From Pseudoroseomonas ludipueritiae (GTDB taxonomy: Bacteria > Pseudomonadota > Alphaproteobacteria > Acetobacterales > Acetobacteraceae): a stretch of 43,397 nt of DNA. Position 1 is the stretch's first letter. Each line of letters begins with the position of its first letter. The notes beneath the pieces were generated by a model. That model was given only the letters and a program-made list of their open reading frames with translations, had not been told where the DNA came from and did not search any database. The DNA lies in assembly GCF_014490445.1 (NCBI RefSeq), contig NZ_JACTUZ010000023.1, positions 1 through 43,397 of the forward strand, given 5' to 3'. The translations under genes were made by a program, and so were the position numbers. Shown in pieces: positions 23,015 to 43,397 of the stretch.

Positions 23015-24385
23015 ATGGCTATTCTTTCTTCTGTTGATCAGCCGGAAAACGCGATTGTTCTGAATCCTGGCGATAACATCCAGGAAGCGGTGCGGGCTGG
23101 CGGCGAAGGCGCCGTGTTCTGGCTGGAAGCCGGCGTCTACCGCATGCAGCAGATCGAGCCGCTCGAAGGGCAGACCATCCTAGGTGCCAGCGGCGCCGTC
23201 CTGAACGGCTCCCGGCTGCTGACCGAGTTCACCGAGGTCGATGGGCACTGGGTCGCGGAAGGCCAGACCCAGCAGGGCGTGCGCCACGAGACGGATGAAA
23301 GCGCGGAAGGTGCCCAGCGCCCCGGCTACCCCGATGCCGTCTATGTCAACGACCAGCCGCTGACGCCGGTGGATTCCCTCGACCAGCTGCGGTCGGGCAC
23401 CTATTTCTTCGACTACGACGCCGACCGCATCTTCCTCGGCGATGATCCCCATGGCCAGACGGTGGAAGCCGCAGTCAGCCCCTTCGCCATCGCCAGCGGC
23501 GCCAATGGCGTCACGGTGAGCGGCCTGACCGTCGAGAAGTATGCCACCCCGACCCAGGAAGCCGCCATCAGCGGCAACGGCGAGGGCTGGGTGATCAGCA
23601 ATAACGAGGTGCGGCTCAACTACGGCGTCGGCATCAACATCGGCGGGAACGGCCAGATCCTGGACAACCACGTCCATGACAACGGCCAGATGGGCCTGAA
23701 TGCCGGCGGCGGCGGCATCCTGATCGAAGGCAACGAGATCGCCTCCAACGGCTTCTGGTCCGGCATCGATGTTCTCTGGGAAGGCGGCGGCGGCAAGTTC
23801 ACCGAGACCGACGGGTTGATGGTGCGGAACAACTATTCGCACGACAACAACGGCTATGGCCTCTGGACCGATATCGACAACGTCAACACCACCTATGAGG
23901 GCAACCGGATCGAGTACAACTCGGCCGGCGGCATCAACCACGAGATCAGCTATTCCGCCAGCATCCACGACAACAGCTTTGTCGGCAACGGCGGCAATGG
24001 CCTGACCTGGCTCTGGGGCAGCGCCATACAGGTGCAGAACAGCCAGGATGTCGAGATCTTCAACAACTTCATCGACGCCAGCAGCGGCGGCAACGGCATT
24101 GGCCTGATCCAGCAGGATCGTGGCGAGGGCGCTTTCGGCGACTATGTCACCGTCAATAACAGCGTTCACGACAATACGCTGATCCTCACCTCCGAGGGCG
24201 GCGTCGGCGCCGTGGCCGACTATGACGAGGAGCGGATGCTGGCCGGCGGCAACAGCTTCGACAACAACGTGTACCATGTGTCGGAGGGGGGCGAGGACCA
24301 GTTCGCCTTCGGTGACTACTACACCTTCGAGAACTTCGGCGCCGTCGTCGGCCAGGACCTGGGCAGCTCGCTGCTGATCGGCTGA
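23015..24385 (+). CDS. Right-handed parallel beta-helix protein, possible secreted polysaccharide-modifying enzyme (paralogue of the protein at 42019)
   Basis: A 456-residue protein with repeated PbH1-like coils (SNNEVRLNYGVGIN, LDNHVHDNGQMGLN, IEGNEIASNGFWSG, VRNNYSHDNNGYGLW, HDNSFVGNG, FNNFIDASSGGNG), the fold of pectate lyases and alginate epimerases. The ATG at 23015 follows GGAG by 8 bp. No signal peptide is seen. The protein is strongly acidic, has only two lysines and no cysteine, and ends in LGSSLLIG, as in many type I secretion substrates, though no RTX nonapeptides are present. Blocks shared with its paralogue are WEGGGGK (near residue 257), WTDIDN (near 285), HEIS (near 310) and QQDRG (near 366); they may line a carbohydrate-binding groove. 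Activity is not established. Confidence 0.82.
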   Translation: MAILSSVDQPENAIVLNPGDNIQEAVRAGGEGAVFWLEAGVYRMQQIEPLEGQTILGASGAVLNGSRLLTEFTEVDGHWVAEGQTQQGVRHETDESAEGAQRPGYPDAVYVNDQPLTPVDSLDQLRSGTYFFDYDADRIFLGDDPHGQTVEAAVSPFAIASGANGVTVSGLTVEKYATPTQEAAISGNGEGWVISNNEVRLNYGVGINIGGNGQILDNHVHDNGQMGLNAGGGGILIEGNEIASNGFWSGIDVLWEGGGGKFTETDGLMVRNNYSHDNNGYGLWTDIDNVNTTYEGNRIEYNSAGGINHEISYSASIHDNSFVGNGGNGLTWLWGSAIQVQNSQDVEIFNNFIDASSGGNGIGLIQQDRGEGAFGDYVTVNNSVHDNTLILTSEGGVGAVADYDEERMLAGGNSFDNNVYHVSEGGEDQFAFGDYYTFENFGAVVGQDLGSSLLIG

Positions 24386-24411
24386 CCCTCCGGCCTCAGA
24401 TGAGCCAAAAG

Positions 24412-24439
24412 CTCCGGGCGTGATTTGTCACGTCCGGAG
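24412..24439 (+). terminator. Stem-loop after the beta-helix gene
   Basis: CTCCGGGCGTGA and TCACGTCCGGAG pair over 12 bp (one G-T pair) around a TTTG loop, 26 bp after the stop codon. No U-tract follows, but position and stability suit termination. Confidence 0.6.
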
Positions 24440-24443
24440 GATG

Positions 24444-24471
24444 CGCCGGGCGTGGCCAACCGCGCCCGGCG
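24444..24471 (+). terminator. Second stem-loop after the beta-helix gene
   Basis: CGCCGGGCG at 24444-24452 pairs perfectly with CGCCCGGCG at 24463-24471. It follows the first hairpin by 4 bp, so the pair may act as a tandem terminator. The remaining 250 bp up to the glycosyltransferase gene show nothing else clear. Confidence 0.45.
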
Positions 24472-24719
24472 GCCCGGCGCGCTCCGGTGAATCCGCGCCT
24501 CTTGTTCCGGTCCTGGCATTGGCATGCTGCCTGTTCCGAAAGGACAGGGGTACTCCCATTGCACCAAAGGGCGATCCCCTGCCCTCATGCTAAAGCCCTG
24601 GAAGAGGAGCGAAGGAAGCAGGCCGCTCCGCCTTGCCGGAGGTGGCAGGGGGAGTTCCGGGCCGGCTCCGCGCGGCGGGGCGCTTCCGGCCATGCCCAAG
24701 GGAAGACCAGGAGCGACCA

Positions 24720-25568
24720 ATGCAGGGAATGTCTGTGCCGCTTCAAGGCGAAGGAACAGGAAGCGCCGCGGCGCCGCCACGCCACGAGGTGCTCGGCGTG
24801 CGGATCTCCGCGACGGATTACAACAGCGCCTGCGCCGCCGTGCGGCAGGCCGCGCAGGCCGGGCGGCCGCTGACGGTGACCGCGCTGGCGGTGCACGGCG
24901 TCATGACCGGTGCGCTGGATGCCGAGCACCGGCGCAGGCTCAACGCGCTCGACCTCGTGGTGCCGGATGGCCAGCCTGTCCGCTGGGCGCTGAACCTCCT
25001 CTTCGGGGCCGGGCTCCCCGACCGCGTCTATGGCCCGGAGCTGACCCTGCGGGTCTGCCGGATGGCCGCCGCGGAGGGCCTGCCGGTCGCCTTCTACGGC
25101 AGCCAGCAGGTGGTGCTGGACGACTTGCGCGAGAAACTCCTGCAGCGCATCCCGGGGCTGAAGATCGTGGCCATGGTGCCTTCGCGCTTCCGCCGCGTGG
25201 ACCGCGCGGAGCAGGCGGAGATCGCCGCCTCGCTCTCCGCCAGCGGCGCGCGCATTCTCTTTGTGGGGCTCGGCTGCCCGCGGCAGGAAACCTGGCTCTA
25301 TGAACATCGGGACCTGATCCGGATGCCGATGCTGGCTGTCGGGGCCGCTTTCGACTTCCATGCGGGGCGGCTGCCGCAGGCCCCACCCGCCATGCAGCGG
25401 CGCGGCCTTGAATGGCTGTTCCGCCTGGCCAGCGAGCCACGGCGGCTCTGGCGCCGTTACCTGTTCCTTAACCCGCTCTACATTACCTTGCTGCTGCTGC
25501 AGGCCGCCGGGTTGCGCCGGCCCGTGGCGCCGGACACGCCCGCCCCGAAGCACCTGGGCTACGCCTGA
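24720..25568 (+). CDS. WecG/TagA/CpsF-family (GT26) glycosyltransferase, GumM-like
   Basis: A 282-residue glycosyltransferase of family GT26. Conserved blocks are [15 protein letters not shown] near residue 77, [12 protein letters not shown] near 103, [14 protein letters not shown] near 122 and [18 protein letters not shown] near 180, where PRQE matches the family PKQE motif. The C-terminal stretch [19 protein letters not shown] near 226-244 is typical, and the following hydrophobic segment probably anchors it to the membrane. It would add a sugar to the undecaprenyl-linked oligosaccharide on the cytoplasmic face. AGGAG precedes the ATG at 24720. It is separated by terminators from the beta-helix gene and followed by hairpins. 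Confidence 0.9.
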
Positions 25569-25584
25569 ACCTCAGATAACGCGG

Positions 25585-25634
25585 CGGCCTCTCGGCAGGC
25601 CGTGACGGCCCTGCCCCCAGGAACCGGCCTGGGG
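25585..25634 (+). terminator. Two tandem hairpins after the GT26 gene
   Basis: CGGCCT-N6-AGGCCG (25585-25602) and CCCCAGG-N6-CCTGGGG (25615-25634) lie 16 and 46 bp after the stop codon. Both are perfect but short and lack a U-tract. Confidence 0.45.
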
Positions 25635-25639
25635 CGGGG

Positions 25640-26161
25640 CCAGCCGCTTCAAGCCGCCCAGGGAGCCCCCTGAACGGCGCCTGCCCTGCCATGCCCTGCC
25701 GCCAGCAGGCAGTGCCCGCGGCACAATGGTGCAGTTGCAGACAATGCCGATTTCATCACGGCTTCTGTCCGTATATTTGCAGTAACGCGAATAGTATTGA
25801 CGTTGCACGGAAGGCAGCGCGCCTCACGCATCTTGGCGCAAAACCGGAAAACTTCCGCTCCGGCGCACCGAAACAAGCGACCTGAAGTCCGGTTGTTCAA
25901 GGTTACCTTCAAATTTCCGTGTGAACTTTGGAGGCAGCTTTGTTTTGCCTTGGAATCGTTCAGTAATGGTGATGCAATTCATAGAACCTTCGAGAGACCA
26001 ACAAAGGTCTGAATTTACGGAACGCAGAGTTACACAACCATGACGGGTATTTTTACTGGAATTTTCGTTGCAGGAGAATGCTTCAACGGCAGTGTTTATT
26101 GAATGCTTCTCCGATTTTCTTGCCAGGCTTTCCCGCTTCAGCGCCTCGGAGGGAGACCACC
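25640..26161. promoter_or_regulatory. AT-richer control region upstream of the LuxR-type regulator gene
   Basis: No gene is supported in these roughly 520 bp. Small palindromes occur at 25845-25857 (CGGAA-AAC-TTCCG) and 25899-25909 (AAGGT-T-ACCTT). The base composition drops toward A+T between about 25735 and 26100, as expected for a promoter and regulator-binding region. No single -35/-10 pair stands out. Confidence 0.4.
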
Positions 26162-27136
26162 GTGTATATAACCGAGAGCAGCGTCGCGACCGTGAACCTC
26201 CAAGCGCAGGTGGCGGTCGTCAGCCCTCAGCAACTCTACCTCGACGCCCTGCGGCGCCTCCTCACCTCGTCTGCCTATACGATCGTGGGGGCAGGACGGA
26301 CGCTGGAGGAGGCGCTGCAGGACAAGACCCCGGACAGCCCCCTGGCCCTGATCGTGTACAACCTGGGCGCGGATGAGGATGTCGAGCAGGAACTCGACAA
26401 CATCAAAGCCATCCACAGGCGGTTTCCCCACGCCAAGTCGGTGCTGCTGACCGATTGCCGCCGCGTCTCGACCAAGCTGAAAGTCATGCAGGCGGGCATC
26501 GAGGCCATCCTTTCGCGCGACATTTCGATCGATGTGCTGCGGAGCGCGCTGGAACTCGTGCTGCTCGGCAAGTGCATCATGCCGGCGGAGCTGACGCGGC
26601 CGCTGCTGCGGCAGGAGCCGACGGATGCCGCCGGAGCCGAGGTGCCGCCCCCGCCCCCTCCCGCCGAGATCATGCCGCGGCAGGTGGCGCGCGAGAGCGC
26701 TCTGCTCTCCAGCCGCGAGCACCAGATCCTGCAATGCCTGATCAATGGCCTCACCAACAAGGCCATTGCCCGCGACCTGGACATCTCCGAGGCCACGGTG
26801 AAGGTGCATGTCAAGGCGCTGCTGCGGAAGACGCGCCTGGCGAACCGGACGCAGGCCGCCATCTGGGCCCTGAACAACGCGCCGGAAAGCAAGCTCCTCT
26901 CCGCCGCCGCCGCCGCCGATGATGGCAGCGCCGCGTCCTGGCTGGGCGAGGAAGCAGACAGCGCGCGCCCCCGCCCCCTGACCGTCCCGCACGATGTGGA
27001 TGTGGAGCGCATCGCCGCCCCCCGCTGGCGCGACCGCGAGCCCGGGCATGACAGCCGCGCCGCTGGAACCGGCCCGCAGGGTATGGGCGCCCCGGCCCGA
27101 GGGAATGGATACATGATCGCCGATGACATTCCGTAA
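26162..27136 (+). CDS. LuxR/NarL-type regulator with a degenerate receiver domain
   Basis: A 324-residue protein. Residues about 15-130 resemble a response-regulator receiver, but the acidic pair is replaced by S21-P22 (AVVSPQQ), the phosphorylation-site Asp by N67 (LIVYNLG) and the conserved Lys by R119 (ILSRDIS). A proline-rich linker near residues 162-170 leads to a clear LuxR HTH near 181-240 (LSSREHQILQCLINGLTNKA, ISEATVKVHVKALLRKT). About 80 low-complexity residues follow. The GTG at 26162 has GGAGG 10 bp upstream. It heads a cluster with the beta-barrel, Wza and transglycosylase genes and probably regulates EPS genes without phosphorylation. Confidence 0.88.
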   Translation: MYITESSVATVNLQAQVAVVSPQQLYLDALRRLLTSSAYTIVGAGRTLEEALQDKTPDSPLALIVYNLGADEDVEQELDNIKAIHRRFPHAKSVLLTDCRRVSTKLKVMQAGIEAILSRDISIDVLRSALELVLLGKCIMPAELTRPLLRQEPTDAAGAEVPPPPPPAEIMPRQVARESALLSSREHQILQCLINGLTNKAIARDLDISEATVKVHVKALLRKTRLANRTQAAIWALNNAPESKLLSAAAAADDGSAASWLGEEADSARPRPLTVPHDVDVERIAAPRWRDREPGHDSRAAGTGPQGMGAPARGNGYMIADDIP

Positions 27137-27155
27137 CCGCAGGAAGACACGGCGA

Positions 27156-28490
27156 ATGCGGCCATCGCCCGCGCCAGCCGCGGGCCCCGCGCCGGCGGTC
27201 AGGCCGGCCTGTATAGTTCCGGCCGGGGCGGGCGCCATCGCCGCCGTCCTTGCCGCGCTCTGCTCCTTCCCGGCCCTGGCGCAGACCAGCCTGCCGGAAG
27301 TCACCCTGCGCTCTCCCACGGTCATTGGCCGGCTGCGGCCGGATTACGAGCCTGCCGGGGTGCGCCTCGGCGGCTTCAGGCTGGATGGCAGGGCCGAGGC
27401 GGGGCTGGGCTACAGCGACAACCTCGCCCCCACGGCGCCGGAACGCCTGACCGGCATCTTTCTGCAGGAATCCACGCAGCTTTCCCTGGCCAGCGACTGG
27501 ACGCGGCATGCCGTTGCCGTAAGCGCCTCCCAGGCCACGCGCCGCCACCCGGACGCCGGCAGCCTGGACTGGACGGACTACCAAGTGGGGCTGATGGGCC
27601 GCTACGACATCGGCCGCGCTTCCTCCGTCAGCCTCGGCTATTCCCATATCCGCGGCCATCTGGAGGTCACGGATTTCGACGTGCAGCAAAGCACGCTGAA
27701 TCGCCCGCTGCCCTTCGATTCCGATGTGCTCTCCGTCGCCGGCACCGCCGCCTTCAACAGGATCACGCTGGGCGCATCGGCGGAATACAGGACCGTCCGC
27801 TACGAAGGGAACGACGCCGCCTTCCTGGACGACACGGCCTTTCCTTTCCGCGCGGCCGGCGACGGGCGGGACTACGACCGCACCACCGGTGAAGTCTCCG
27901 CCGCCTACAGCTTCCTGCCCGGCCGCGACGTGATGGTGATCGCGCGCGTGACCGATATCTCCTACCTCCACACGGCGCAGGAAAGCCGCGACTCCCTGAC
28001 CTGGGAGGCCCTGGCCGGCATCCGCTACGACCTCACCGGGCTCTGGGGCTTCCGCATCGCGGTCGGCTACCGGCACCGGGATTACGAGGACCCCACCCTC
28101 CGCAACCGCTCCAGCCCGGCCTTCGAGGGGCAGATCCTCTACCTGCCCACGCAGCTCACCACGGTGACGCTCACCGCGCAGCGCAGCATCGAGGAATCCA
28201 CCCGCGCCACCAATGTCAGCTACACGCGCACGCTGGTGCGGCTGAACGTGGACCATGAGCTGCTGCGCAATGTCATCCTGAGCGCCGAGCTGCGGGGCGA
28301 ACACCGGAAATACGACCGGGAGAGCCAGAGCGTCACCGATGCCGTGGGCATTCTCTCCGCGCAGTTCATCCTCAATCGCCGCGTGTCCCTGCTGGCCAGC
28401 TACCAGCGCTACGAGCGGCTGCAGGCTTCGGCCGGCATCCAGGAATTCGACCAGAACCTGTTTCTGATGCGGCTGAGGTTCACCCTGTGA
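27156..28490 (+). CDS. Outer-membrane beta-barrel protein (BBP2-type, EPS-associated)
   Basis: A 444-residue protein with a long N-terminal signal region (hydrophobic AGAGAIAAVLAALCSFPALA, cleaved before QTSLPEV). The rest is built from alternating beta strands rich in Tyr, Arg and Thr, e.g. GRAEAGLGYSDNLAPT near residue 85, VSLGYSHIRGHLEV near 160 and ILSAELRGEHRKYD near 380, ending in LFLMRLRFTL with a C-terminal hydrophobic residue pattern typical of outer-membrane barrels. Similar porin-like proteins recur in EPS loci, where they may help export the polymer. The ATG at 27156 follows AGGAAG; an ATG at 27123 would overlap the regulator gene. The gap to the regulator is 19 bp. Confidence 0.8.
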   Translation: MRPSPAPAAGPAPAVRPACIVPAGAGAIAAVLAALCSFPALAQTSLPEVTLRSPTVIGRLRPDYEPAGVRLGGFRLDGRAEAGLGYSDNLAPTAPERLTGIFLQESTQLSLASDWTRHAVAVSASQATRRHPDAGSLDWTDYQVGLMGRYDIGRASSVSLGYSHIRGHLEVTDFDVQQSTLNRPLPFDSDVLSVAGTAAFNRITLGASAEYRTVRYEGNDAAFLDDTAFPFRAAGDGRDYDRTTGEVSAAYSFLPGRDVMVIARVTDISYLHTAQESRDSLTWEALAGIRYDLTGLWGFRIAVGYRHRDYEDPTLRNRSSPAFEGQILYLPTQLTTVTLTAQRSIEESTRATNVSYTRTLVRLNVDHELLRNVILSAELRGEHRKYDRESQSVTDAVGILSAQFILNRRVSLLASYQRYERLQASAGIQEFDQNLFLMRLRFTL

Positions 28491-28603
28491 GCCCGCCGCG
28501 CATCCCCGCACGGCGAGGCCGCGCCCCGCTTGGCTCCGGGCCCGGCGGCATATCACCGCAGGGCGGGGCAACCGCGTGCCTTGATCAGGCAAATGGAGGA
28601 TCT

Positions 28604-29215
28604 ATGCAGGCCCGACCTATCCATCGTGGCATCCCGCCGCTTTCCCCGCTGGGCCGCCGGGCGGCGCTGGGTGCGGCGCTCTCCCTCGCCCTGCTGGGGG
28701 GATGCACCTCGGTCGGCGCGGACCTGCCGCCCATGCCGGAGGAAACGGCCGGCCCCTACCGGCTGGGCGCCGGCGACCAGGTCCGGGTCACGGTCTTCAA
28801 CGACCCCCGCCTCACCGGCGATTTCCGTGTTGGCGATACCGGCTCCCTGGCCCTGCCGCTGGTCGGCCTGGTGCCGGTGCAGGGGCGCACCACCGAGCAG
28901 GCCGCACGGCAGATCGAGGAAGCCCTCCGCTCCCGCGACCTGTTCAACGATCCCTCCGTGGCGCTGGAGATCCTGACCTATCGCCCGGTCTTCGTGCTAG
29001 GCATGGTGGAGCGCGGCGGGCAGACCCCTTACCAGCCGGGCATGACAGTGCTGTCGGCGGTGGCCACGGTCGGCGGCTTCAATTACCGCGCCGTGACCAG
29101 TTACGTCGGGCTCACCCGCATCGGGGAAGATGGCCAGGCCCACGAATACCGCGCCGGACGTTCCGCGCTGCTGCAGCCGGGGGATGTCGTGAACGTCTTC
29201 GAACGGCGTTTCTGA
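28604..29215 (+). CDS. gumB: Polysaccharide export lipoprotein, Wza/GumB family (OPX)
   Basis: A 203-residue outer-membrane lipoprotein. The lipobox is LALLGGC with C34 as the lipidated residue. The Poly_export domain starts YRLGAGDQVRVTVFNDPRL near residue 48, and an SLBB segment follows (RPVFVLGMVERGGQTPYQPG near 130). The length is close to GumB rather than full-length Wza, so it lacks the C-terminal helix that forms the outer-membrane pore in Wza; the adjacent beta-barrel protein might compensate. GGAGG precedes the ATG at 28604. It lies 113 bp after the barrel gene and 2 bp before the transglycosylase gene. Confidence 0.92.
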   Translation: MQARPIHRGIPPLSPLGRRAALGAALSLALLGGCTSVGADLPPMPEETAGPYRLGAGDQVRVTVFNDPRLTGDFRVGDTGSLALPLVGLVPVQGRTTEQAARQIEEALRSRDLFNDPSVALEILTYRPVFVLGMVERGGQTPYQPGMTVLSAVATVGGFNYRAVTSYVGLTRIGEDGQAHEYRAGRSALLQPGDVVNVFERRF

Positions 29216-29217
29216 CC

Positions 29218-30081
29218 ATGGCGCCGCCATGCCCCGGGGGGCCGGCCCGCCGCTGGCGCCACGGCATGGCCGTGCTCGGCTTCATCCTCCTGCAGCAGGG
29301 GGCGGCGCTCGCCGCATCGCCCCCGCCCCGGAAGATGGAGGACCTGTGCCGGCCGGCGGCCATGGCGGCGGAAATCGATGCCGAGCTGCCGCAGGGCATC
29401 CTGATGGCGATCGCACGGGTGGAATCGGGCCGCATGGACCCTGCCTCCGGCGCCGCCATCCCCTGGCCCTGGACCATCAACGCCGAGGGCGTGCCGATGG
29501 TCTTCAACACGCGCGAGGAAGCCGTGGCGGCGGTCGAGGCATTGCAGGCCAGGAACGTCCGGTTGATCGACGTGGGATGCATGCAGGTCAACCTGCATCA
29601 TCATCCGGATGCCTTCGGCTCGCTGGCCGAGGCTTTCGACCCCGCCGCCAATGCCCGCTACGCCGCCCGCTTCCTGATCCGGCTGCGCGGCAGCAGCGGC
29701 ACCTGGGAGACGGCCATTGGCCGCTACCATTCCTCGACGCCGGGCCTGTCCGAAGCCTATCGCGACCGCGTGCTCGCTGCCTGGACGAAGACCAGCCGGA
29801 GGTCGCTGGCCGATCTCCGGCGCGACCGGGTGGCCGCCGCCTGGGCCGATGCGCGCAGGGGAGAAGGCCGCGCGGGCCAGGCCACCGCCACGGATCAGGA
29901 GAGGCCCCGCGCCTCCCGTGACCCGGTGGAGCAGATCGCGGCGCTCTGGCAGCGCAGCCGCCCGGATGACGGGGCGGAGCGGCTGCCGGCCGCTTCGATG
30001 CCCCGTGCCCGGCTGGTGCAGGGGCCGGCCTTTCCGGCCCGGACGCGGCTGGCGCGCAGCGAACGGATCACCGCGCGCTAG
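29218..30081 (+). CDS. Lytic transglycosylase (SLT domain) in the EPS export operon
   Basis: A 287-residue periplasmic protein with signal peptide (MAVLGFILLQQGAALAAS, cleavage near residue 33). The SLT-like domain has LPQGILMAIARVESGRMDP with catalytic E69, followed by PWPWTINAEG near 81-90 and VGCMQVNLHHHPDAF near 120-134, then a GRYHSSTPG block near 172. It would cleave the glycan strands of peptidoglycan. The ATG at 29218 is 2 bp after the gumB stop, so it is probably translated with it; local cell-wall opening for the export complex is a reasonable role. The C-terminal 90 residues are charged and probably disordered. Confidence 0.88.
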   Translation: MAPPCPGGPARRWRHGMAVLGFILLQQGAALAASPPPRKMEDLCRPAAMAAEIDAELPQGILMAIARVESGRMDPASGAAIPWPWTINAEGVPMVFNTREEAVAAVEALQARNVRLIDVGCMQVNLHHHPDAFGSLAEAFDPAANARYAARFLIRLRGSSGTWETAIGRYHSSTPGLSEAYRDRVLAAWTKTSRRSLADLRRDRVAAAWADARRGEGRAGQATATDQERPRASRDPVEQIAALWQRSRPDDGAERLPAASMPRARLVQGPAFPARTRLARSERITAR

Positions 30082-30106
30082 GAATCACGGCACGAAGGCC
30101 GCGAAA

Positions 30107-30136: not shown

Positions 30137-30146
30137 GCCATGCCGG

Positions 30147-31487
30147 TCAGCTCGTGGCGATCAGGGGCAGCAAGGGCCGCGAGCGGCCATTGCCGATGCA
30201 GGTATAAAGGAAGCCCGCCGCCTCCACCTCACCGCTCGAATAGATGTTGCGGAGGTCCACCATGATCGGCCAGCGCATGCCGTCGCGCAGCCGCTTCAGG
30301 TCCAGCCTGCGGAAGACATCCCAGTCCGTGACGAGCACCAGCGCATCGGTGCCCAGCGCGGCCTCATAGGGATCGCTGGCATATTCGACCTCGTTCAGGA
30401 TCAGCGCGGCCTGCTCCATCCCTTCCGGGTCATAGGCACGGACCCAGGCTCCCGCATCCTCCAGCGCCTGGACAAGCGCGATGGCCGGCGAATCCCGCAT
30501 GTCGTCGGTATTGGGCTTGAAGGTCAGGCCGAGCAGGCAGATGGTCTTGCCACGCACGCTGCCGCCGCAGGCGGCGATGACGCGGCGGCTCATGGCCCGC
30601 TTGCGGCGCTCGTTCACCTCCGCCACGGTTTCGGCGATGCGGAGGGAGGTGCCGTGATCATGCGCCGTCTTGATCAGCGCTGACACATCCTTGGGGAAGC
30701 ATGAACCGCCGAAGCCTGGCCCGGCATCGAGGAACTTCTGCCCGATGCGGCTGTCCAGCCCGATTCCCTTTGAGACGTCGCGCACATCCGCGCCCACCAT
30801 CTCGCAAAGATCGGCCATCTCGTTGATGAAGGTGATCTTCGTGGCCAGGAAAGCATTGGCCGCGTATTTCGTCAGCTCCGCGGTGCGGCGCGTGGTGAAG
30901 ATCAAGGGAGCATGCCCGGCGCAGAGAGGCCGGTAGATATCCGCCATCACCACGCGGGCGCTGTCATCCTCGACACCGATGATGATGCGGTCCGGCCGCT
31001 TGAAATCCTCGATCGCCGCGCCCTCACGCAGGAACTCCGGGTTGGAGGCGACGGAGAAATGCAGGTCCGGCCGCGCCTCGCGGATCATCCGCTCCACCTC
31101 GTCGCCCGTACCCACCGGCACGGTGGACTTCGTCACCACCACGGCATAGCCCGTCAGGGCCTGCGCGATGCCGCGCGCCGCCTGGTAGACATAGGTGAGG
31201 TCCGCATGCCCGTCGCCACGGCGGGACGGGGTGCCCACCGCGATGAACACCGCATCGGCGCCGGCCACCGCCCAGTTGATGTCGCTGTCGAAGGACAGGC
31301 GCCCTTCCGCCATGTTCCGGGCCACCAGGTCGTCGAGACCCGGCTCGTAGATCGGGATCCGCCCGCGCTGCAAGGCATCGATCTTGGCGGGATCCTTGTC
31401 AGCACAGCGGACGCTGTGACCAAAATCGGCCAGGCATGCACCTGTGACCAAGCCGACATAACCGGCTCCGATGATGGCGATCCTCAT
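30147..31487 (-). CDS. ugd: UDP-glucose 6-dehydrogenase
   Basis: A 446-residue enzyme that oxidises UDP-glucose to UDP-glucuronate with two NAD+. The NAD-binding motif is IIGAGYVGLVTGACLADFG at residues 5-23, KSTVPVGTG lies near 120, the catalytic cysteine is in GFGGSCFPKD near residue 260, and the C-terminal UDP-binding domain includes LGLTFKPNTDDMRDSP near 318. AGGAGGA precedes the ATG. It is the last gene of a minus-strand cluster with GumD, UDP-xylose synthase and an epimerase, and its product is the substrate of the UDP-xylose synthase. A 205-bp gap separates it from the epimerase gene, so it may have its own promoter. Confidence 0.95.
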   Translation of the reverse strand: MRIAIIGAGYVGLVTGACLADFGHSVRCADKDPAKIDALQRGRIPIYEPGLDDLVARNMAEGRLSFDSDINWAVAGADAVFIAVGTPSRRGDGHADLTYVYQAARGIAQALTGYAVVVTKSTVPVGTGDEVERMIREARPDLHFSVASNPEFLREGAAIEDFKRPDRIIIGVEDDSARVVMADIYRPLCAGHAPLIFTTRRTAELTKYAANAFLATKITFINEMADLCEMVGADVRDVSKGIGLDSRIGQKFLDAGPGFGGSCFPKDVSALIKTAHDHGTSLRIAETVAEVNERRKRAMSRRVIAACGGSVRGKTICLLGLTFKPNTDDMRDSPAIALVQALEDAGAWVRAYDPEGMEQAALILNEVEYASDPYEAALGTDALVLVTDWDVFRRLDLKRLRDGMRWPIMVDLRNIYSSGEVEAAGFLYTCIGNGRSRPLLPLIATS

Positions 31488-36138: not shown

Positions 36139-38397
36139 GTGGATCGGTTCACCTTCGACACGTCGCTTGGGAAAAGTCTGCCGGCGCTGCCGGCCCGCGA
36201 ATATCGCGAGAATGTCGCTGTGGCGACGATCCTCTCGCTCTGGCGCCGCCGCTATCTCATCGTCTCGGCGGCCGCGCTGTCGGTGCTGGTCGCCGCCGGC
36301 GTGCTGACGCAGCTGGAGAAGCGATACGCCGCCGAGGCGGTCGTGAAGCTGGACCTGCAGCGGCCCGAGCCCGCATCCGGCGGCGACCAGGCCCTGGCCG
36401 TGGCGGTGGACCTCAATGCCGTGGCCCAGAGCGAGGCGCGCATCGCCCGCTCCCGCGCCGTCGTGCGCGCCGTGGTGGATCGCCTGGGCCTGGCATCGGA
36501 CCCGCGCTATGCCGCCAGGGAATCCCGCATGGCGCTGGTGCGCACCGCCCTGCTGCGCGAGCTGGACTGGGTCCGGCGCATGGTGCTGGGCCATCAGCCG
36601 GAGCCCGCCGCCACGGTGGAGGAACCTGAGCCCGCCGACGCGGTGCCGGAGGATGACGCCCGCAGCCGGGCCGTCCGCGACGTGATGCAGCGGCTGAACG
36701 TGGCGCCCGACAGCCGCTCCTATCTCATCACCATCTCCTACCAGTCCTATGATCCTGTGCTGGCCTCGCGCGTCGCGAATGCCGTGGCGCAGGAATACCT
36801 CGCGCGGCAGAGCATCTCCGTGCACGACCCCGCCCGCCGGCGCGCCGAATGGCTGGCCGGGCGCGTCGAGGAGATGACGGCTGCCCTGCGCGCGGCGGAG
36901 GCCGAGGTGGCGGCCTTCCGCGAGCGCAACGGCCTGCTCGGCTCCGCGTCCGACACGAACACGCCGGAGAATGTCTCACAGCAGCAGCTTCAGGAGGTCA
37001 CGGCCCAGCTCGGGGCCGCCAATCTGGCCCGCATGAACGAGGAGCGGCGGCTGGCGCGGGTGCAGGACCTGCTGCGCTCCGGCCAGCTTCCTTCCGCTGC
37101 CGACCTGCAAAGTTCGCCGCTGATCGCCACGCTCCTGGAGCGTGAGGCCACCGCGCGGCGCGAGCTGGGCGAGAAGCAGCTCCGCTTCGGCGCCCGCCAT
37201 CCCAGCGTGCTGGAGCAGCAGGCGGGCATCGCCGACCTGCGCGGGCGGATCGACGCTGAGCTGCGGCGCACCGTGCGCGTCATCGCTGGCGACCTTGCCG
37301 CCGCGCGCGACACCGAGGCCGATCTCAGCCGGCGGCTGGAAGCCCTGAAGCGCACGCTGCTCGACGGCAAGTCGCATGAAGGCGAGCTGCGCGTCCTGAT
37401 GCGCGAGGTGCAGACCACCCGGGACCGCCTGGCGACGCTGGAGCAGAGCTACGACCAGGCCCTGGCCGCGCGCGACCTGCGGCCGGTGGCGGCCTCGCTG
37501 GTGCTGCCGGCCGAGCCGGACCAGATCCCGGTCTTCCCCCGCCCCTTCCTGGTGCTGGCGCTCGGGCTGCTGGGCGGGCTCGGCCTCGGCACCTCCAGCG
37601 CGCTGCTGCTGGAGCGCCGTGACCAGGGCCTGCGCACCAGCAGCGACCTGTCGCCCAATGCGGGCACGCGCTGCCTCGCCATGGTGCCGGAAGTGCCGAT
37701 GCCGACCCTGTCCCGCGTCGCGCGGCGCACCAAGGGCCACGCGGCCTTCGAGGAAGCGGTCTATTCGGCGGGTGCCGGCGCCGGCCTCTTCAACAGCGCG
37801 CATGGCTGCCGCACCGTGCTGGTGACCTCCTCCATCGCGGGGGAAGGCAAATCCACGCTCTGCCGTGCCCTGGCGCGGGCACTGACCGCATCCGGCAAGC
37901 GCGTGCTGCTCATCGAGGGCGCGCCGCTGCGGGAGCAGGGTCAGGAGGGGACACGCTGGGAAGCGAAGGCGGAGCAGGCGGCCCCCGGCACGGCGGGCAC
38001 GCGGACCAACATCGCGCCCCTGACCTACAACTTCGCCATGTCGGCCCTGGAGGCGAAGCTTGAGGAGGCGCGCAAGTCCTTCGACCTCATCATCCTCGAA
38101 GGCGCGCCCGTCATGCTGGTGGCCGACAGCATCGTGCTGGGCCGGCAGGCGGATGTCGTGATCCATGTCGCGCGCTGGGCCCATACGCGGCGCCGCGTCG
38201 TGGAAGCGGCGCTGCGGCGCATGAGCGAGAATTCCCTGGTGGTCGATGGCGTGGTGCTGATGCGGGTGAACCTGCGCCGGCACCGCCGCCTCCACCTCTT
38301 CGATGACTGCTCCTTCTACGTGAGGGAGCGCCGTCTTTATGAGCGCATGGCCAGGCATGCCGGCCTGCGCTCGCCTTCCCTGCGCGAGAGGACGTAG
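36139..38397 (+). CDS. gumC: Chain-length/polymerisation protein, Wzc/GumC type with a degenerate tyrosine-kinase domain
   Basis: A 752-residue inner-membrane protein. A Wzz-type domain with membrane helices near residues 39-56 and 469-490 encloses a long periplasmic coiled coil (e.g. RRAEWLAGRVEEMTAALRAA near 234). A cytoplasmic P-loop domain follows: Walker A VTSSIAGEGKST (562-573). The Walker A' reads LLIEGAPLR (E593) and Walker B IILEGAPVM (E654), so both canonical aspartates are glutamates. The C terminus has only scattered tyrosines (YVRERRLYERM) instead of a Tyr cluster. It probably controls polymer length and export with GumB but may not autophosphorylate. The start is a GTG with a weak ribosome site. 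The epimerase gene starts 3 bp after the stop. Confidence 0.92.
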   Translation: MDRFTFDTSLGKSLPALPAREYRENVAVATILSLWRRRYLIVSAAALSVLVAAGVLTQLEKRYAAEAVVKLDLQRPEPASGGDQALAVAVDLNAVAQSEARIARSRAVVRAVVDRLGLASDPRYAARESRMALVRTALLRELDWVRRMVLGHQPEPAATVEEPEPADAVPEDDARSRAVRDVMQRLNVAPDSRSYLITISYQSYDPVLASRVANAVAQEYLARQSISVHDPARRRAEWLAGRVEEMTAALRAAEAEVAAFRERNGLLGSASDTNTPENVSQQQLQEVTAQLGAANLARMNEERRLARVQDLLRSGQLPSAADLQSSPLIATLLEREATARRELGEKQLRFGARHPSVLEQQAGIADLRGRIDAELRRTVRVIAGDLAAARDTEADLSRRLEALKRTLLDGKSHEGELRVLMREVQTTRDRLATLEQSYDQALAARDLRPVAASLVLPAEPDQIPVFPRPFLVLALGLLGGLGLGTSSALLLERRDQGLRTSSDLSPNAGTRCLAMVPEVPMPTLSRVARRTKGHAAFEEAVYSAGAGAGLFNSAHGCRTVLVTSSIAGEGKSTLCRALARALTASGKRVLLIEGAPLREQGQEGTRWEAKAEQAAPGTAGTRTNIAPLTYNFAMSALEAKLEEARKSFDLIILEGAPVMLVADSIVLGRQADVVIHVARWAHTRRRVVEAALRRMSENSLVVDGVVLMRVNLRRHRRLHLFDDCSFYVRERRLYERMARHAGLRSPSLRERT

Positions 38398-38400
38398 CAA

Positions 38401-39378
38401 ATGACGCATGCACGCATGCTGGTCACGGGTGGTAACGGCTATGTGGGGCGTCAGCTCACGCGCCGGTTGTGCCAGAGCGGCGAGGTCGGCGTCGCCGACA
38501 ATCTCCGCTACGGCCCCTGGCGGTTCACGCCCGAGGAAAGGACACAGCTTCAGCTCTTCCGTTGCGACATCCGCCAGTCGGAGGAAGTCGAGGGGCTGAT
38601 GGAGGATTTCGCGCCGGATGTCACGGTGCACCTGGCCGCGCTGCACTACATCCCGGAATGCGAGGACCATCCGAAGCTGGCCGTGGACACGAATGTGCTC
38701 GGCACGCTCAACCTGCTGCTCGCCTGCCCGCCGGGCTCCCGCTTTGTGCTGGCGAGCACCGGCGCGGTCTACCGGCCGGATGAGCGCCCGCACCACGAGG
38801 AGGAATCGGCTGTCGGGCCCAGCGACATCTATGGCTTTAGCAAGCTGCATGCGGAGAACTATGTCCGCATGATCGCGGCCAAGCGTGGGTTGCGGGCGGT
38901 GATCGTCCGGCTCTTCAATGTGGTGGGACCGGGCGAGACCAATCCGCATCTGCTGCCCGAGATCATGGCCCAGCTGAAGTCCGGCCGCCGTGTCATCGAC
39001 CTCGGCAACCTCTCGCCACAGCGGGACTATATCAGCGTGGAGGACGCGGCACGCGGCTTCGAGGCCGCCGCGCTGGGCAATGCGGTGGAGCCGGGCGAGA
39101 CGGTGGTGGTCAATCTCGGCACCTCCCAAACCTATTCCGTCGCGGAAGTGGTGGAGAAGCTGCGCCAGGTCTCCGGCATTGACTTCGAGATCCGCCAGGA
39201 CGAAAGCCGCATCCGCAAGGTGGACCGCCCCGTGCTGCGCGCGGACAACCGGCGGATCGGCGAGTTGTTCGGCTGGCGCCCGCAGCAGACGCTGGACGAG
39301 GTGCTCGCCCAGATGTGGCAGAATGCCGACCTCGCACGCTGGCTGACGGAGCGCTACCAGAGCAAGGTGGTCACGTGA
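38401..39378 (+). CDS. NAD-dependent nucleotide-sugar epimerase/dehydratase (GalE-like)
   Basis: A 325-residue extended SDR protein. The cofactor motif is VTGGNGYVGRQL at residues 8-19, the active-site residues are S119/T120 (LASTGAVYRP) and Y144-GFS-K148, all intact. VRLFNVVGPGETNPHLLPEI near 172-190 and RDYISVEDAARGF near 210 are typical of UDP-sugar 4-epimerases and related dehydratases. It would supply a sugar nucleotide for the EPS; the substrate is unknown. It lies 3 bp after the GumC gene and overlaps the GT4 gene by 4 bp (GTGA). Confidence 0.88.
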   Translation: MTHARMLVTGGNGYVGRQLTRRLCQSGEVGVADNLRYGPWRFTPEERTQLQLFRCDIRQSEEVEGLMEDFAPDVTVHLAALHYIPECEDHPKLAVDTNVLGTLNLLLACPPGSRFVLASTGAVYRPDERPHHEEESAVGPSDIYGFSKLHAENYVRMIAAKRGLRAVIVRLFNVVGPGETNPHLLPEIMAQLKSGRRVIDLGNLSPQRDYISVEDAARGFEAAALGNAVEPGETVVVNLGTSQTYSVAEVVEKLRQVSGIDFEIRQDESRIRKVDRPVLRADNRRIGELFGWRPQQTLDEVLAQMWQNADLARWLTERYQSKVVT

Positions 39379-40637
39379 TCCGCGTCCTGGCTGCGGTGGT
39401 GGTGCCGCCGCATCTCTCGGTCAGTGGTGGCGCCCGCGCCGCCGAGCAGCTGAGCGCGGCCCTGGCGCCCCATTGCGACATCACCGTCGCCAGCATGATG
39501 AATGGCACGGGCGCTGGCACGGCCTCCTTCGCCCCCGGCGGGGTGCGGCGGCTGCCGGTGCGGAGCTGGCGGCCGCGCGGCATTCCCTGGTCACGGCTGG
39601 CGGACCGCTACAGCACGCTCTTCTACCGCTCCGACCTCAGTGAGATCGTCGCGCGCGGCGGCTATGACCTTGTGCATCTGCACAATCCGCTGCCCGCACT
39701 GGAGATGGAGCGCGTGGCGCGGGCCTGCATCGCGCGCCGCATTCCCTATGTGGTCTCCACCCACGGCATCAATGAAGTGGCGAATGGCGCGCGCATCTAT
39801 GGCTTCGACCGCCTGCGGCGCCTCGCCTGGGAGAATCTGGTGGTGCGGCCGGTGAGTCGGGTGGTGCGGCAGGCCAATGCCGTCTTCGCGCTCTCCCCGG
39901 CGGATGTGCCTATCGTCCGCGGCATGGGCTTCCATGACGAGCCCGACATCGTCTGCAACGGCGTGCCCATGCCCGCCCCGGCAGCGCCGGGCGCCGATGC
40001 GGCGGCCTTGCGCCGCCTGGGCATTCCGGTGGAACGCCAGCCCGGTCAGATCACCTGCATGTTCCTGGCCAACCACACGCCCAACAAGGGCCTGCCGCAA
40101 TTGCTGGAGGCCATCACCCGCCTGCGCCGCCCCTGCCTGCTGATCGTCGGCGGGGAGCGGCGCGACACGATCGACTACGAGCGCTACCTGCGCGCCTGCG
40201 CGCCGGGGCAGCAGATCGTGATCACCGGCCGCGTGGGCGACGAGGATGTCGCCGCCATGTACCGGCGCTCGGACCTCTTTGTCTTCCCGACACTGGCGGA
40301 TACCTTTCCGCTGGTGGTGCTGGAGGCCATGTCGCATGGCCTGCCGGTGCTCGCCACGCGCGTCGGCGGCATTCCGTATCAGGTGGACGCGAGCTGCGGC
40401 GCGCTGGTGGACCCCGACGATCCGGGGCAGCTCGCGGCGGCCATCGACCGGCTGGGGGCCGATCCGGGCGGGCTGCGGCAGCTTGGCGTGAATGCCCGCG
40501 CGCGCGTCGCCACCGAATTCACCTGGGAACACGCGGCGGAACGGGCGATGGATGGCTATCACCGCGTGCTCGGGCTGAAGCCGGCGGGCAGGCGGTCCCT
40601 CCGGCAGAGGGCGGCGGAGCAGGCGAATGCGGATTAG
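39375..40637 (+). CDS. Glycosyltransferase family 4 protein
   Basis: A 420-residue GT-B enzyme with the GT4 layout. The N-terminal lobe begins with VIRVLAAVVVPPHLSVSGGA and contains YDLVHLHNPLPALEM near 97. The donor-binding C-terminal lobe has MFLANHTPNKGLPQLLEAI near 228, VITGRVGDEDVAAMYRRSDL near 282 and the EX7E-type segment FPLVVLEAMSHGLPVLATRV near 315. It would add a sugar from a nucleotide donor to the lipid-linked repeat at the membrane. The GTG start overlaps the epimerase stop, indicating coupling. The C terminus overlaps the flippase gene by 11 bp. Donor and acceptor are unknown. Confidence 0.93.
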   Translation: MIRVLAAVVVPPHLSVSGGARAAEQLSAALAPHCDITVASMMNGTGAGTASFAPGGVRRLPVRSWRPRGIPWSRLADRYSTLFYRSDLSEIVARGGYDLVHLHNPLPALEMERVARACIARRIPYVVSTHGINEVANGARIYGFDRLRRLAWENLVVRPVSRVVRQANAVFALSPADVPIVRGMGFHDEPDIVCNGVPMPAPAAPGADAAALRRLGIPVERQPGQITCMFLANHTPNKGLPQLLEAITRLRRPCLLIVGGERRDTIDYERYLRACAPGQQIVITGRVGDEDVAAMYRRSDLFVFPTLADTFPLVVLEAMSHGLPVLATRVGGIPYQVDASCGALVDPDDPGQLAAAIDRLGADPGGLRQLGVNARARVATEFTWEHAAERAMDGYHRVLGLKPAGRRSLRQRAAEQANAD

Positions 40638-41913
40638 CCTGATCCTGAATCGCGGCTCCTGGACCATGGCTGACCAGATGGTGGTCAGCGGCGGAACCTT
40701 TCTCGTCAACCTCCTGCTGGCGCGCCAGCTTCCGCAGGAGGAATACGGCGTCTTCGCCGTGCTGCTCGGCGGCATGCTGACCCTGCAACTGCCCTGTGGC
40801 GCATTGCTGCTCTACCCGCTGTCCGTCCAGCTACAAGCCCTGGACGGCAAGGCGGAGCGGAGCATGCTGATGCGCTCCACGCTGGTGCTCGTCCTGCTCC
40901 TGGCCCTGGTGCTGGGCATGGTCCTGGCCCCGGTGCTGCTCGCCTTCGGCCGGGCGGAGCTGGCGATACCCGCCCTGCTGTGCTTCGTCTTCTGGCAATT
41001 GCAGGAAGCGACGCGCCGCAGCCTCTTCTCCACCTTCCGCCACCGGGGGGCGATCCTTGGCGACAGCATCAGCTATGCCGGCCAGGCGCTGATCGTCATC
41101 GGCCTCGCCACGCAGGGCAGGCTGACACTGCCCGAGGTCTATCTCGGCATGGCGGCGACCTCGCTCTTCGCGGCGGCGGTGCAATGGGTGCAGCTCGGAC
41201 TCACGCTGCGGGGGCCGCTGCCGCTGCGGCGGGTGGCCAGGGAATTCTGGGCCTTCGGCGCCGGCTGGTCGCTGGTGAACGGCATCCTGTCGCAGCTACG
41301 CGGCCAGATCCTGGCCTGGACGGTCGCCTTCGAGGGCGGCATCGCGGCGGCGGCCGCGTTGCAGGCAGCCGCCAATGTCGTGAACATGGCCAACCCACTG
41401 CTGATCAGCCTCGGCAACATCATTCCCCAGGCCGTGGCGCGCGCGGCCCGGCAGGGCATGGCCGAGGGCTGGCGGGCGGCGCGCTCCTATGCCTATCTCG
41501 CGCTGCCCTTCTTCCTGGGCTATGCGGCGCTGGTGCTGGCGGTGCCGGGACCGATCCTGCAGCTCTTCTATGGCTCCAGCTCGGGCTATACGGATCTCGC
41601 CACCGTGCTGCGGCTGCTCGTGCTGGGCGCCCTGCTGGGCTATGTGGCCGATATCTTCGTCAGCTTCCTCCATGGCGTGGTGGCCTTGCGCCTGGCCACC
41701 TTCATCAATGCCACGGGCCTGGTGGCGACGGTGATCCTCTCCTGGCTGCTGGTCGGGCAACTCGGCCTTGTCGGCGGCTGCCTCGTGGGCATCGGCGCCA
41801 ATATGGTGCGGCTGGCGGCCTGCCGGAGCGCGATGGCGAAGCTGATGGGCAGCCCGGCCTCACCGCTGCCCCCACCGGGCCTCGCCGCCGCGGCCCAGCC
41901 CCGGGGCAAGTGA
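40627..41913 (+). CDS. wzx: Wzx-type oligosaccharide flippase (MOP superfamily)
   Basis: A 428-residue integral membrane protein with roughly 12 hydrophobic segments spread over its length, the pattern of polysaccharide-specific MOP exporters. It begins with a VVSGGTFLVNLLLARQLPQE helix near residues 19-38 followed by EYGVFAVLLGGML, a common Wzx opening. Wzx proteins flip undecaprenyl-linked repeat units to the periplasm. It ends the operon that starts with GumC, and its start overlaps the GT4 gene by 11 bp. The last 20 residues are proline- and alanine-rich. Confidence 0.88.
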   Translation: MRISLILNRGSWTMADQMVVSGGTFLVNLLLARQLPQEEYGVFAVLLGGMLTLQLPCGALLLYPLSVQLQALDGKAERSMLMRSTLVLVLLLALVLGMVLAPVLLAFGRAELAIPALLCFVFWQLQEATRRSLFSTFRHRGAILGDSISYAGQALIVIGLATQGRLTLPEVYLGMAATSLFAAAVQWVQLGLTLRGPLPLRRVAREFWAFGAGWSLVNGILSQLRGQILAWTVAFEGGIAAAAALQAAANVVNMANPLLISLGNIIPQAVARAARQGMAEGWRAARSYAYLALPFFLGYAALVLAVPGPILQLFYGSSSGYTDLATVLRLLVLGALLGYVADIFVSFLHGVVALRLATFINATGLVATVILSWLLVGQLGLVGGCLVGIGANMVRLAACRSAMAKLMGSPASPLPPPGLAAAAQPRGK

Positions 41914-41919
41914 GCAGGA

Positions 41920-41957
41920 GGGCGCGGACCGGGTTTCCGAATCCCCCGTCCGCGCCC
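41920..41957. terminator. Terminator-like hairpin between wzx and the convergent beta-helix gene
   Basis: Fourteen bases at 41920-41933 pair with 41944-41957 with a single mismatch around a 10-base loop. It starts 7 bp after the wzx stop and can act for both converging genes. Confidence 0.7.
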
Positions 41958-42018
41958 GCCGGTTTCATGTTTTGGACGCAGCCCGCGGGCTCCTCCCGCC
42001 AGCGCGGGGCTCAGGCGA

Positions 42019-43397
42019 TTACTTCACCGCCTCGACCCGGCTGGCCGCATCCTGCCCCGAGTGCCGCCGGTGCTCGGCCCAGTTCCGGAAGCCATCCACC
42101 CAGGCCCAGTGCTCATCCCCGGCGTCGCGGACACGGTAGAGGTTGCGGTCGAAGCGGTTGTTGCCGGCGCGCAGTCCTTCCAGGTCGTGGTCGGCCAGCG
42201 CACCGGAGGCGCCATGGTCCGGCGTCCCGCTGAACAGCGTGTTGTCATGGACATGGTTGTTGACCGTGACATAGGCGCCGCGGTCCTGCTGCACGAGGCT
42301 GATGCCATTGCCCCGGCCTGTCATGTCCACGCTGTTGCCATAGACCTCCACGTCGCGGGAATTTTGCACCAGGATCGCGGCGCCCCAGAGCCAGACGGGC
42401 CGGGCGGGGCCGTTCCGGCGGAAGACATTGCGGCGGATGGTGGCGGAGAAGCTGATCTCATGCGTGATGCCGCCCGCGAGGTTGTCCTCCACCAGGTTGT
42501 CCTCGTAGAGCGAGCCTGTATTGTCGATATCCGTCCAGAAGCCATAGCCGTTGTTGTGGTGGAAATGGTTGCCGCGCACGACCAGCCCGCGCGTCAGGGC
42601 GCATTTCCCGCCGCCGCCTTCCCAATTGGGATCGACACCCGAGAAATAGCCGTTGGAGGCGATCTCGTTCCGCTCGAAGAGGATGTCCTGGCCGACGCAG
42701 CCCGCCCCCATCTCCCCATTCCCATGGATGTGGTTGCCCAGCACGCGGCTGCCTGAGCCGACACTGATGCCGAGGCCGTAGTTCAGCCGGATCTCGTTGT
42801 CGCGGAGCAGCCAGCCGGGCGAGGGAACATTGTAGCCCACCGCGCCATATTGCACCGGCGGCGCGTATTTCTCGATGGTGAGGTTCTCGATCATCACCCC
42901 GCGCGCGCCGCCGCGGAAGGCATAGGGCGCGACGCTGGCCTCGACTTTCCGGCCGCGCGGGTCGTCCAGGAAGTAGGCGCGGCTGCGGCTGTAGTCGAAG
43001 AAGAAGCGGCCCGGCGCCAGCTCCCGCAAGTGGGACACATGCTGCAAGGGCCTGTTGTCGATGAAGAAGGCCTCGGGATAGGAGCAGCGCTCCCGCCCGG
43101 GCAGGCAGATCACCTCGGGCCGGTGCTCGCCACGCTGGCCCTGGCCGCGCGCGACCCAGTATGGCCCCTCCCGCACGAAGTCCGTCACCAGGCGGGCACC
43201 GTTCAGCAGCGCACCGGCCTCGCCGTGGAAGCGCTGGCCCTCCTTGGGGATGGCCGCCTGCAACCGGTGCTCCCCCGCCCCGATGCAGAAGCTGGCGCCG
43301 GGTGGCGCGGCATCGATGGCGGCCTGGAGCGACATGCCGGGCTGGACGCGGAGGGCGCCGGCCGGGCAGGCCGCGCCCGGCCGCGGGCCGGATGCCA
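42019..43397 (-). CDS. Right-handed parallel beta-helix protein, N terminus outside window (paralogue of the protein at 23015)
   Basis: The frame is open from the right edge; an ATG at 43335 lies inside the conserved segment RVQPGMSLQAAIDAAPPG, so the true start and any signal peptide are outside the window. At least 459 codons are visible. PbH1-like coils run through the whole chain (RDNEIRLNYGLGIS, LGNHIHGNGEMG, ERNEIASNGYFSG, VRGNHFHHNNGYGFW, RRNVFRRNG). It shares with the protein at 23015 the blocks WEGGGGK, WTDIDN, HEIS, VQNSRDVEVYGN, QQDRG and VTVNNHVHDNTL. Unlike that protein it has six visible cysteines, fitting Sec export and periplasmic disulfides. A lyase, epimerase or hydrolase acting on the EPS is plausible but unproven. 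Confidence 0.82.
   Translation of the reverse strand, partial: ASGPRPGAACPAGALRVQPGMSLQAAIDAAPPGASFCIGAGEHRLQAAIPKEGQRFHGEAGALLNGARLVTDFVREGPYWVARGQGQRGEHRPEVICLPGRERCSYPEAFFIDNRPLQHVSHLRELAPGRFFFDYSRSRAYFLDDPRGRKVEASVAPYAFRGGARGVMIENLTIEKYAPPVQYGAVGYNVPSPGWLLRDNEIRLNYGLGISVGSGSRVLGNHIHGNGEMGAGCVGQDILFERNEIASNGYFSGVDPNWEGGGGKCALTRGLVVRGNHFHHNNGYGFWTDIDNTGSLYEDNLVEDNLAGGITHEISFSATIRRNVFRRNGPARPVWLWGAAILVQNSRDVEVYGNSVDMTGRGNGISLVQQDRGAYVTVNNHVHDNTLFSGTPDHGASGALADHDLEGLRAGNNRFDRNLYRVRDAGDEHWAWVDGFRNWAEHRRHSGQDAASRVEAVK

Follow-up and report, generated by a model that had tools for sequence, protein, structure and literature searches.

Candidate GH120-related glycoside hydrolases at both ends of an exopolysaccharide locus of Pseudoroseomonas ludipueritiae

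What do two related right-handed beta-helix proteins do at the two ends of an exopolysaccharide (EPS) gene set? We analyzed a stretch of 43,397 bases of P. ludipueritiae, hereafter the window, which is the entire contig C146 of a 5.35 Mb genome in 394 contigs. Protein 1 (P0001, 456 amino acids; 23015 to 24385, plus strand) and protein 2 (42019 to 43397, minus strand) bracket the EPS genes. Hydrolases in EPS loci can have obscure substrate and purpose. The reading that we favor, with a probability of about 0.6, is that both proteins are related to glycoside hydrolase (GH) family 120 and are probably retaining GHs that would act on the EPS of their own locus; activity and substrate are predicted from fold, conserved residues and gene context.

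The open reading frame (ORF) of protein 1 is sound, with GGAG 8 bases ahead of the ATG. Protein 2 lacks its first residues because its ORF runs to the end of the contig, and its residue numbering here follows 42022 to 43395. An earlier inspection of the letters by themselves (the sequence-only reading) had described two beta-helix proteins that align along their length. This was borne out: they share 47% identity and 63% positives over 449 amino acids (E 3e-144), and both match Pfam Beta_helix (PF13229). The best named relative was found in Pseudoroseomonas wenyumeiae (86% identity to protein 1 and 85% to protein 2). The Pfam NosD model was barely above its cut-off of 23.6 for both proteins (25.7 and 28.2), and neither protein reached a cut-off in the NCBIfam scan. 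Membership in NosD (TIGR04247) was rejected, as protein 1 scored 30 bits against a curated cut-off of 300 and protein 2 gave no match; the likeness to NosD is a weak beta-helix match, far under the family cut-off.

Structure models were predicted using AlphaFold, with mean pLDDT values of 95.9 for protein 1 and 94.7 for protein 2. In Foldseek searches of the PDB, the top match of both models was XylC of Thermoanaerobacterium (3vst), a GH120 beta-xylosidase, at E 3.8e-12 and 2.2e-11, respectively, and the runner-up of both was the GH141 enzyme BT_1002, at E of approximately 1e-7. Further fold matches of protein 1 were PL6 enzymes, the Vibrio EPS lyase RbmB, the adhesin PfbA and AlgE4. XylC was also first, at E 6.3e-8 for the whole chain, when a profile of the 64-row family alignment (A3, described below) was compared with PDB sequences, followed by AlgE6 at 1.3e-4. 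Residues of protein 1 and XylC paired in that comparison were W255/His352, E256/Glu353, K261/Lys358, W284/Trp380, D286/Asp382 and E310/Glu405. The placement of D286 and E310 on XylC residues 382 and 405 was unchanged with filters off (A4, signal-peptide and signal-less subsets), at a weak alignment score.

Asp382 is the nucleophile and Glu405 the acid/base of XylC, and alanine at the equivalent positions killed activity in three homologues (PMC8954004). By analogy, D286 would attack the anomeric carbon as nucleophile and E310 would donate a proton as acid/base. GH120 enzymes have a beta-helix with an Ig-like beta-sandwich interruption, and the second GH120 enzyme to be characterized has Trp362 where XylC has its active-site residue His352 (PMC6887791). 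Trp occupied the His352 position in all 64 family rows (W255). In the model of protein 1, a beta-rich stretch at approximately residues 54 to 153 precedes the regular coils, and about 77 XylC residues were unaligned there. K261 lies in strand 258–266, D286 ends strand 281–286 and E310 ends strand 305–310; these predicted strands are successive.

The proteins thus share with the GH120 enzymes XylC (PDB 3VST) and BaXylB the right-handed beta-helix and the aligned Asp/Glu pair. They differ in that identity in Foldseek was 13–16%, that protein 1 has 456 residues and XylC 638, and that the family occurs mostly in EPS synthesis loci, whereas the GH120 enzymes described in the available parts of the papers act on xylo-oligosaccharides. 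Weighing against our reading, the sequence kinship to XylC is weak: the three aligned stretches of XylC taken singly reached E 0.0054, 0.97 and 32. No match to Pfam models named for GH120 was found in the 64 members at E 1, the existence of such a model being unchecked. XylC was not among the 50 matches listed by VIA-align, where AlgE and AlgG were on top; this is not evidence against the kinship. Matches in the viral fold library were mostly tail proteins and unnamed proteins.

The family was collected by a genome scan with five proteins, in which the best 80 of 117 matches were kept, giving 78 loci. These are not independent, as several are from Azospirillum and several from Bradyrhizobium. 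The family was found in Alphaproteobacteria and in other phyla, the latter represented mostly by metagenome bins. It is uncommon: counting the genome of the window each time, it was present in 4 of the 200 genomes sampled from the taxonomic family, in 6 of 385 of the class and, with protein 2 as query, in 5 of 38 near relatives. The alignment A3 consists of both window proteins and 62 of the 78 loci. L020, L022, L023, L026, L044, L049, L056, L057, L059, L060, L064, L072, L074, L083, L084 and L086 were omitted, mostly as near-copies; L044 and L086 were omitted for stops.

Ten residues were identical in 64 of 64 rows: W255, G258, G259, K261, W284, D286, G306, E310, S312 and S343. The motif W-E-[GA]-G-G-x-K contains four of them (W255, G258, G259 and K261), and its E256 was found in 59 rows. 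In W-x-D, W284 and D286 were invariant and D288 was present in just 48 rows, and in H-E-I-S the invariant E310 and S312 were accompanied by H309 in 56. The sequence-only reading had listed five shared motifs. All five occur in both proteins, and these three hold across the 64 rows; VQNS-DVE and QQDRG are conserved in part, the former with S343 invariant and Q341 in 30 rows, the latter with Q367 in 58, R369 in 63 and D368 in 25. The predicted catalytic codons of protein 1 are 23870–23872 (D286) and 23942–23944 (E310), with W255 and K261 alongside. The same invariant residues are present in protein 2, including D289 (codon 42529–42531) and E313 (codon 42457–42459). The suggestion that conserved residues mark the active groove of a polymer-tailoring enzyme fits the invariant K261, D286 and E310 on successive strands of the predicted structure; the closest kinship found is to GH120 enzymes and not to lyases or epimerases.

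A tree of the 64 rows covered eight phylum labels. Protein 1 fell in a clade of 19 rows (support 100/97), none of which had a signal peptide by our hydrophobicity rule, and protein 2 in a clade of five rows (support 100/98), of which the other four had one. The two proteins belong to one family, as the sequence-only reading had held in calling them paralogs. Recent or local duplication was rejected because they fall in separate, well-supported clades with different export features, and by sequence they are members of two old subfamilies.

We examined the gene context with six EPS markers, namely homologues of Wzx, Wzy, the priming transferase, GumC, WecG and GumB. At least two markers were present in 41 of the 54 loci of at least 20 kb and in none of 20 control regions of 20 kb, which were taken from two of the carrier genomes; a single marker was found in one control region. 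The expectation that homologues would lie mostly in polysaccharide loci thus held. Shorter loci had at least two markers in 9 of 24 cases. Zero markers were found in 10 of the 54 long loci and in 14 of the 24 shorter ones. In a class sample drawn regardless of context, four of five loci had at least two markers; two of the five are, by position, L045 and L067 again.

The closest partner of the signal-peptide kind, to which protein 2 belongs, is wzy, which lies outside the window. In 17 of the 78 loci, a Wzy_C polymerase gene with the same orientation ended within 400 bases upstream of the family match, and 16 of these loci were of the signal-peptide type. This Wzy subfamily was present in 6 of the 385 class genomes. 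Five of these six carry the beta-helix family, and five of the six family carriers have this Wzy. In those five genomes, the Wzy match ended 132–205 bases upstream of the family match in three, was approximately 26 kb away in one and, in the genome of the window, on contig C42.

A UDP-glucuronate decarboxylase (UDP-xylose synthase, UXS) is encoded in the window at 32827 to 33966 on the minus strand (human UXS1, 2b69, E 1.5e-127; Pfam Epimerase). With a presence threshold of E up to 1e-80, UXS was found in 33 of 36 carrier genomes, which we had selected from the 78 loci, compared with 127 of 385 class genomes (including 5 of the 6 carriers in that sample) and 90 of 200 genomes of the taxonomic family (including all 4 carriers). 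The distance from UXS to a family member was at most 20 kb in 25 of the 36 carriers and at most 30 kb in 26. A UXS of at least 50% identity was present within 10 kb flanks in 17 of the 54 long loci and in 0 of 20 controls. Comparison of carriers with class non-carriers gave a Fisher p of 1.7e-12, or 0.016 for the six in-sample carriers, with kinship and genome size uncontrolled. Because of this UXS association, the kinship to XylC and the CBM60 fusions described below, a xylose-containing EPS is the leading candidate substrate. We found nothing usable in the literature on xylose in the EPS of these genera.

Signal peptides were assigned by rule, without a trained predictor: a protein qualified if 12 residues ahead of the match had a mean hydrophobicity of at least 1.7 and if it had at most one RTX motif. 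The same hydrophobicity measure was used for second members in carrier genomes. The RTX form L017 passes on hydrophobicity (2.14), and its RTX repeats are the sole reason for classing it as signal-less. Protein 2 had no value under this rule and for that reason carries the signal-less label in the tree. The N-terminus of protein 1 has, by eye, no hydrophobic stretch in the translation, and no signal peptide was seen. Two family members were present in 16 of the 36 carrier genomes, and nine of these pairs share a contig at distances of 0.9–24.7 kb. One member had a signal peptide and the other did not in 13 of the 16; in G599 and G618 the second member is a partial match, and in G605 neither has a signal peptide. 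The arrangement of two family members around an EPS locus thus recurs.

Extra domains were found in some relatives. In a Pfam scan of ten chosen full-length relatives, RTX repeats were present in three (L017, L018 and L031), and CBM60, xylan-binding according to its Pfam description, was fused in two, L019 of Azospirillum and L032 of Bradyrhizobium. Big_12 was also among the extra domains. Protein 1 itself has no RTX repeats. The genome encodes one PrtD-type exporter above the curated cut-off, on another contig, and by analogy with its relatives protein 1 is probably exported by a type I system. In a Hansschlegelia genome, a divergent member (L135, 2976–3758, minus strand; 27% identity over part of the length) stands beside an RTX form.

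The beta-helix fold is common to several classes of protein, and each suggests another role. AlgE and AlgG, the mannuronan C5-epimerases, tailor polymer, AlgE architecture has RTX parts, and DPH[DE] is their catalytic motif. The RTX fusions in relatives recall the AlgE architecture, so that our proteins might be polymer epimerases altering uronic-acid residues in the EPS. DPH[DE] was absent from all 64 rows, however, and the columns aligned to DPHE of AlgE6 and DPHD of AlgG hold other residues. This led us to reject membership in the alginate epimerases. For protein 1, the Foldseek match to XylC was also better than that to AlgE4 by over six orders of magnitude, and epimerization leaves the invariant Asp and Glu unexplained; we consider it very unlikely. 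Beta-elimination on a uronic-acid-containing EPS by PL6-like polysaccharide lyases, which use a Lys/Arg base and calcium, is improbable. It would agree with the fold matches to PL6 enzymes and RbmB, with K261 in all 64 rows and R369 in 63, and with UDP-glucuronate that the locus can probably make. The likeness to PL6 is one of fold; no PL6 model in Pfam matched any of the 64 members, and pectate-lyase-like Pfam matches were weak (best E 0.01 in three members and 0.099 in one). K261 aligns with a Lys of XylC, which is a hydrolase, and XylC, not a lyase, was the top Foldseek match of both models. We give similarly little credence to non-catalytic matrix proteins that would bind EPS along the beta-helix, as the match to the adhesin PfbA and the Big_12, CBM60 and RTX additions, which matrix proteins may have, could suggest. 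The Asp/Glu pair, which in XylC is the catalytic one, does not vary at all across eight phylum labels, and this is unusual for a mere binding surface.

There is a real, though minority, chance that the proteins are glycosidases for another EPS sugar or for a foreign plant glycan, and that the link to xylose is accidental; this is a variant of the reading we favor, and its odds overlap with it. GH141, the next fold relative, has fucosidase, xylanase and, by the title of a paper, endo-fucanase members. Moreover, UXS is present in a third of the class sample, and 10 of the long loci have no EPS markers. On the other side are the UXS located within 20 kb in most carriers and the tight link to wzy. 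As for GH141 itself (BT_1002 and Xyn141E), its enzymes are likewise beta-helix hydrolases, but its sequence match to our family was insignificant (E 0.51). The catalytic residues of BT_1002 are two Asp, Asp523 and Asp564 (PMC5593877), and the sequence matches of our family to GH141 were weak and short.

In the GH120-related hydrolase that we favor, the natural target would be a glycosidic linkage, probably one that involves xylose, in the polymer that the locus itself makes. Protein 2 would trim or end nascent chains in the periplasm beside Wzy. Protein 1 would act extracellularly, probably following export by a type I system, and shorten or remodel the finished polymer. A further proposal, which we hold as tentative and doubtful, is that the proteins represent a novel GH family that is sister to GH120, occurs in several phyla and serves EPS biogenesis specifically. 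Its member with a signal peptide, paired with a specific Wzy, would edit or release nascent xylose-containing chains in the periplasm, and a signal-less, type I-exported member would remodel the finished matrix outside. If so, control of chain length would not lie with the Wzc co-polymerase alone but with a hydrolase coupled to the polymerase and with the secreted twin of that hydrolase.

There are precedents for such enzymes. WceF of Pantoea stewartii is also a beta-helix enzyme encoded in an EPS cluster and cleaves that EPS, stewartan; knockouts of WceF gave longer chains (PMC7949094). WceF differs in being trimeric and tailspike-like, with head, neck, beta-sandwich and C-terminal stem domains. 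In Sinorhizobium, the two glycanases ExoK and ExsH act on one EPS, and ExsH is exported by PrsDE (PMC1403797). Our two proteins may divide the labor as ExoK and ExsH do on succinoglycan. ExoK and ExsH, which we take to be GH16 enzymes, belong to other enzyme families, whereas here both proteins are of one beta-helix family. A Burkholderia EPS cluster has the beta-helix gene Bcam1339, which, in the available part of the paper, was outside the three mutants characterized (PMC3584217). We found no published description of the present family by titles and the beginnings of abstracts; CAZy itself was not searched. For this family we can put forward an enzyme class, a pair of catalytic residues, xylose as the candidate sugar, a partner polymerase and two sites of action, so that laboratory strains such as Azospirillum brasilense would allow a direct test of what polymer trimming contributes to EPS assembly by the Wzx/Wzy route. 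Should the proteins prove active, they would be a source of new enzymes that cut alphaproteobacterial polymers, and more informative names could take the place of annotations reading just 'right-handed beta-helix'.

The EPS genes that the sequence-only reading had placed between the two proteins are real. On the plus strand after protein 1 are genes for a WecG/TagA/CpsF glycosyltransferase (24630–25568; PF03808, E 6.7e-56), a LuxR-type regulator (26078–27136; PF00196), a BBP2_2 outer-membrane beta-barrel (27123–28490; PF10082, E 1.7e-59) and a polysaccharide export protein of the Wza/GumB type (28487–29215; PF02563, E 4.5e-21, SLBB). A gene for a lytic-transglycosylase-like protein (SLT; 29218–30081, plus strand; PF01464, E 7.3e-5) is placed between those for the export protein and a dehydrogenase, and in locus L015 a similar ORF (16842–17711), by eye, follows the export protein gene.

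Four genes on the minus strand include that of UXS. The product of 30147–31487 belongs to the UDP-glucose/GDP-mannose dehydrogenase family (PF03721, PF00984 and PF03720) and is read as a UDP-glucose dehydrogenase, which would feed UXS its substrate. UDP-glucuronate and UDP-xylose are thus probably available from the locus itself for a polymer of the Wzx/Wzy type. The closest solved structures to the Pfam-supported NAD-dependent sugar epimerase (short-chain dehydrogenase/reductase, SDR) at 31693–32790 are CDP-tyvelose 2-epimerases, which hints at an unusual sugar in the polymer. The gene for the priming sugar-phosphate transferase is at 34023–35507 (PF02397, E 1.4e-56).

The remaining genes are on the plus strand. 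A Wzc/GumC-like chain-length protein that includes an ATPase part is encoded at 36139–38397, with weak matches (PF02706, E 2.1e-5, just under the cut-off; PF01656, E 3.1e-6). It is followed by a second NAD-dependent sugar epimerase/dehydratase of the SDR type (38401–39378; PF01370, E 4.4e-48), a GT4-type glycosyltransferase (39315–40637; PF13692, E 1.1e-29) and a putative Wzx-like flippase (40627–41913), so assigned from its look and place and matching no Pfam family at E 1e-4. Homologues of the latter were found in 34 of the 78 family loci.

The Wzy homologue of this genome is located at 10632–11993 of contig C42, which has 12,181 bases. In the last bases of C42 begins an ORF whose product starts with basic and then with hydrophobic residues; its place corresponds to that of the start of protein 2 in P. 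wenyumeiae. No exact overlap of more than 10 bases was found between the ends of C42 and the window. We infer that this ORF is probably the missing signal-peptide coding end of protein 2, split by assembly, and that C42 (1–12181; L145 and L146) is probably the neighbor of the right end of the window. Other ORFs of C42 resemble, by eye, ORFs upstream of protein 2 in locus L033. L033 also has, on its minus strand, a 741-residue ORF (4429–6651) that unexpectedly fuses an oxidoreductase part of the Gfo/Idh/MocA type to an epimerase part. A UbiA-type prenyltransferase (PF01040; 1006–2049, minus strand) and a membrane protein resembling GtrA by eye (566–1006, minus strand) are encoded near this EPS locus, and together they perhaps constitute a prenyl-linked sugar donor route.

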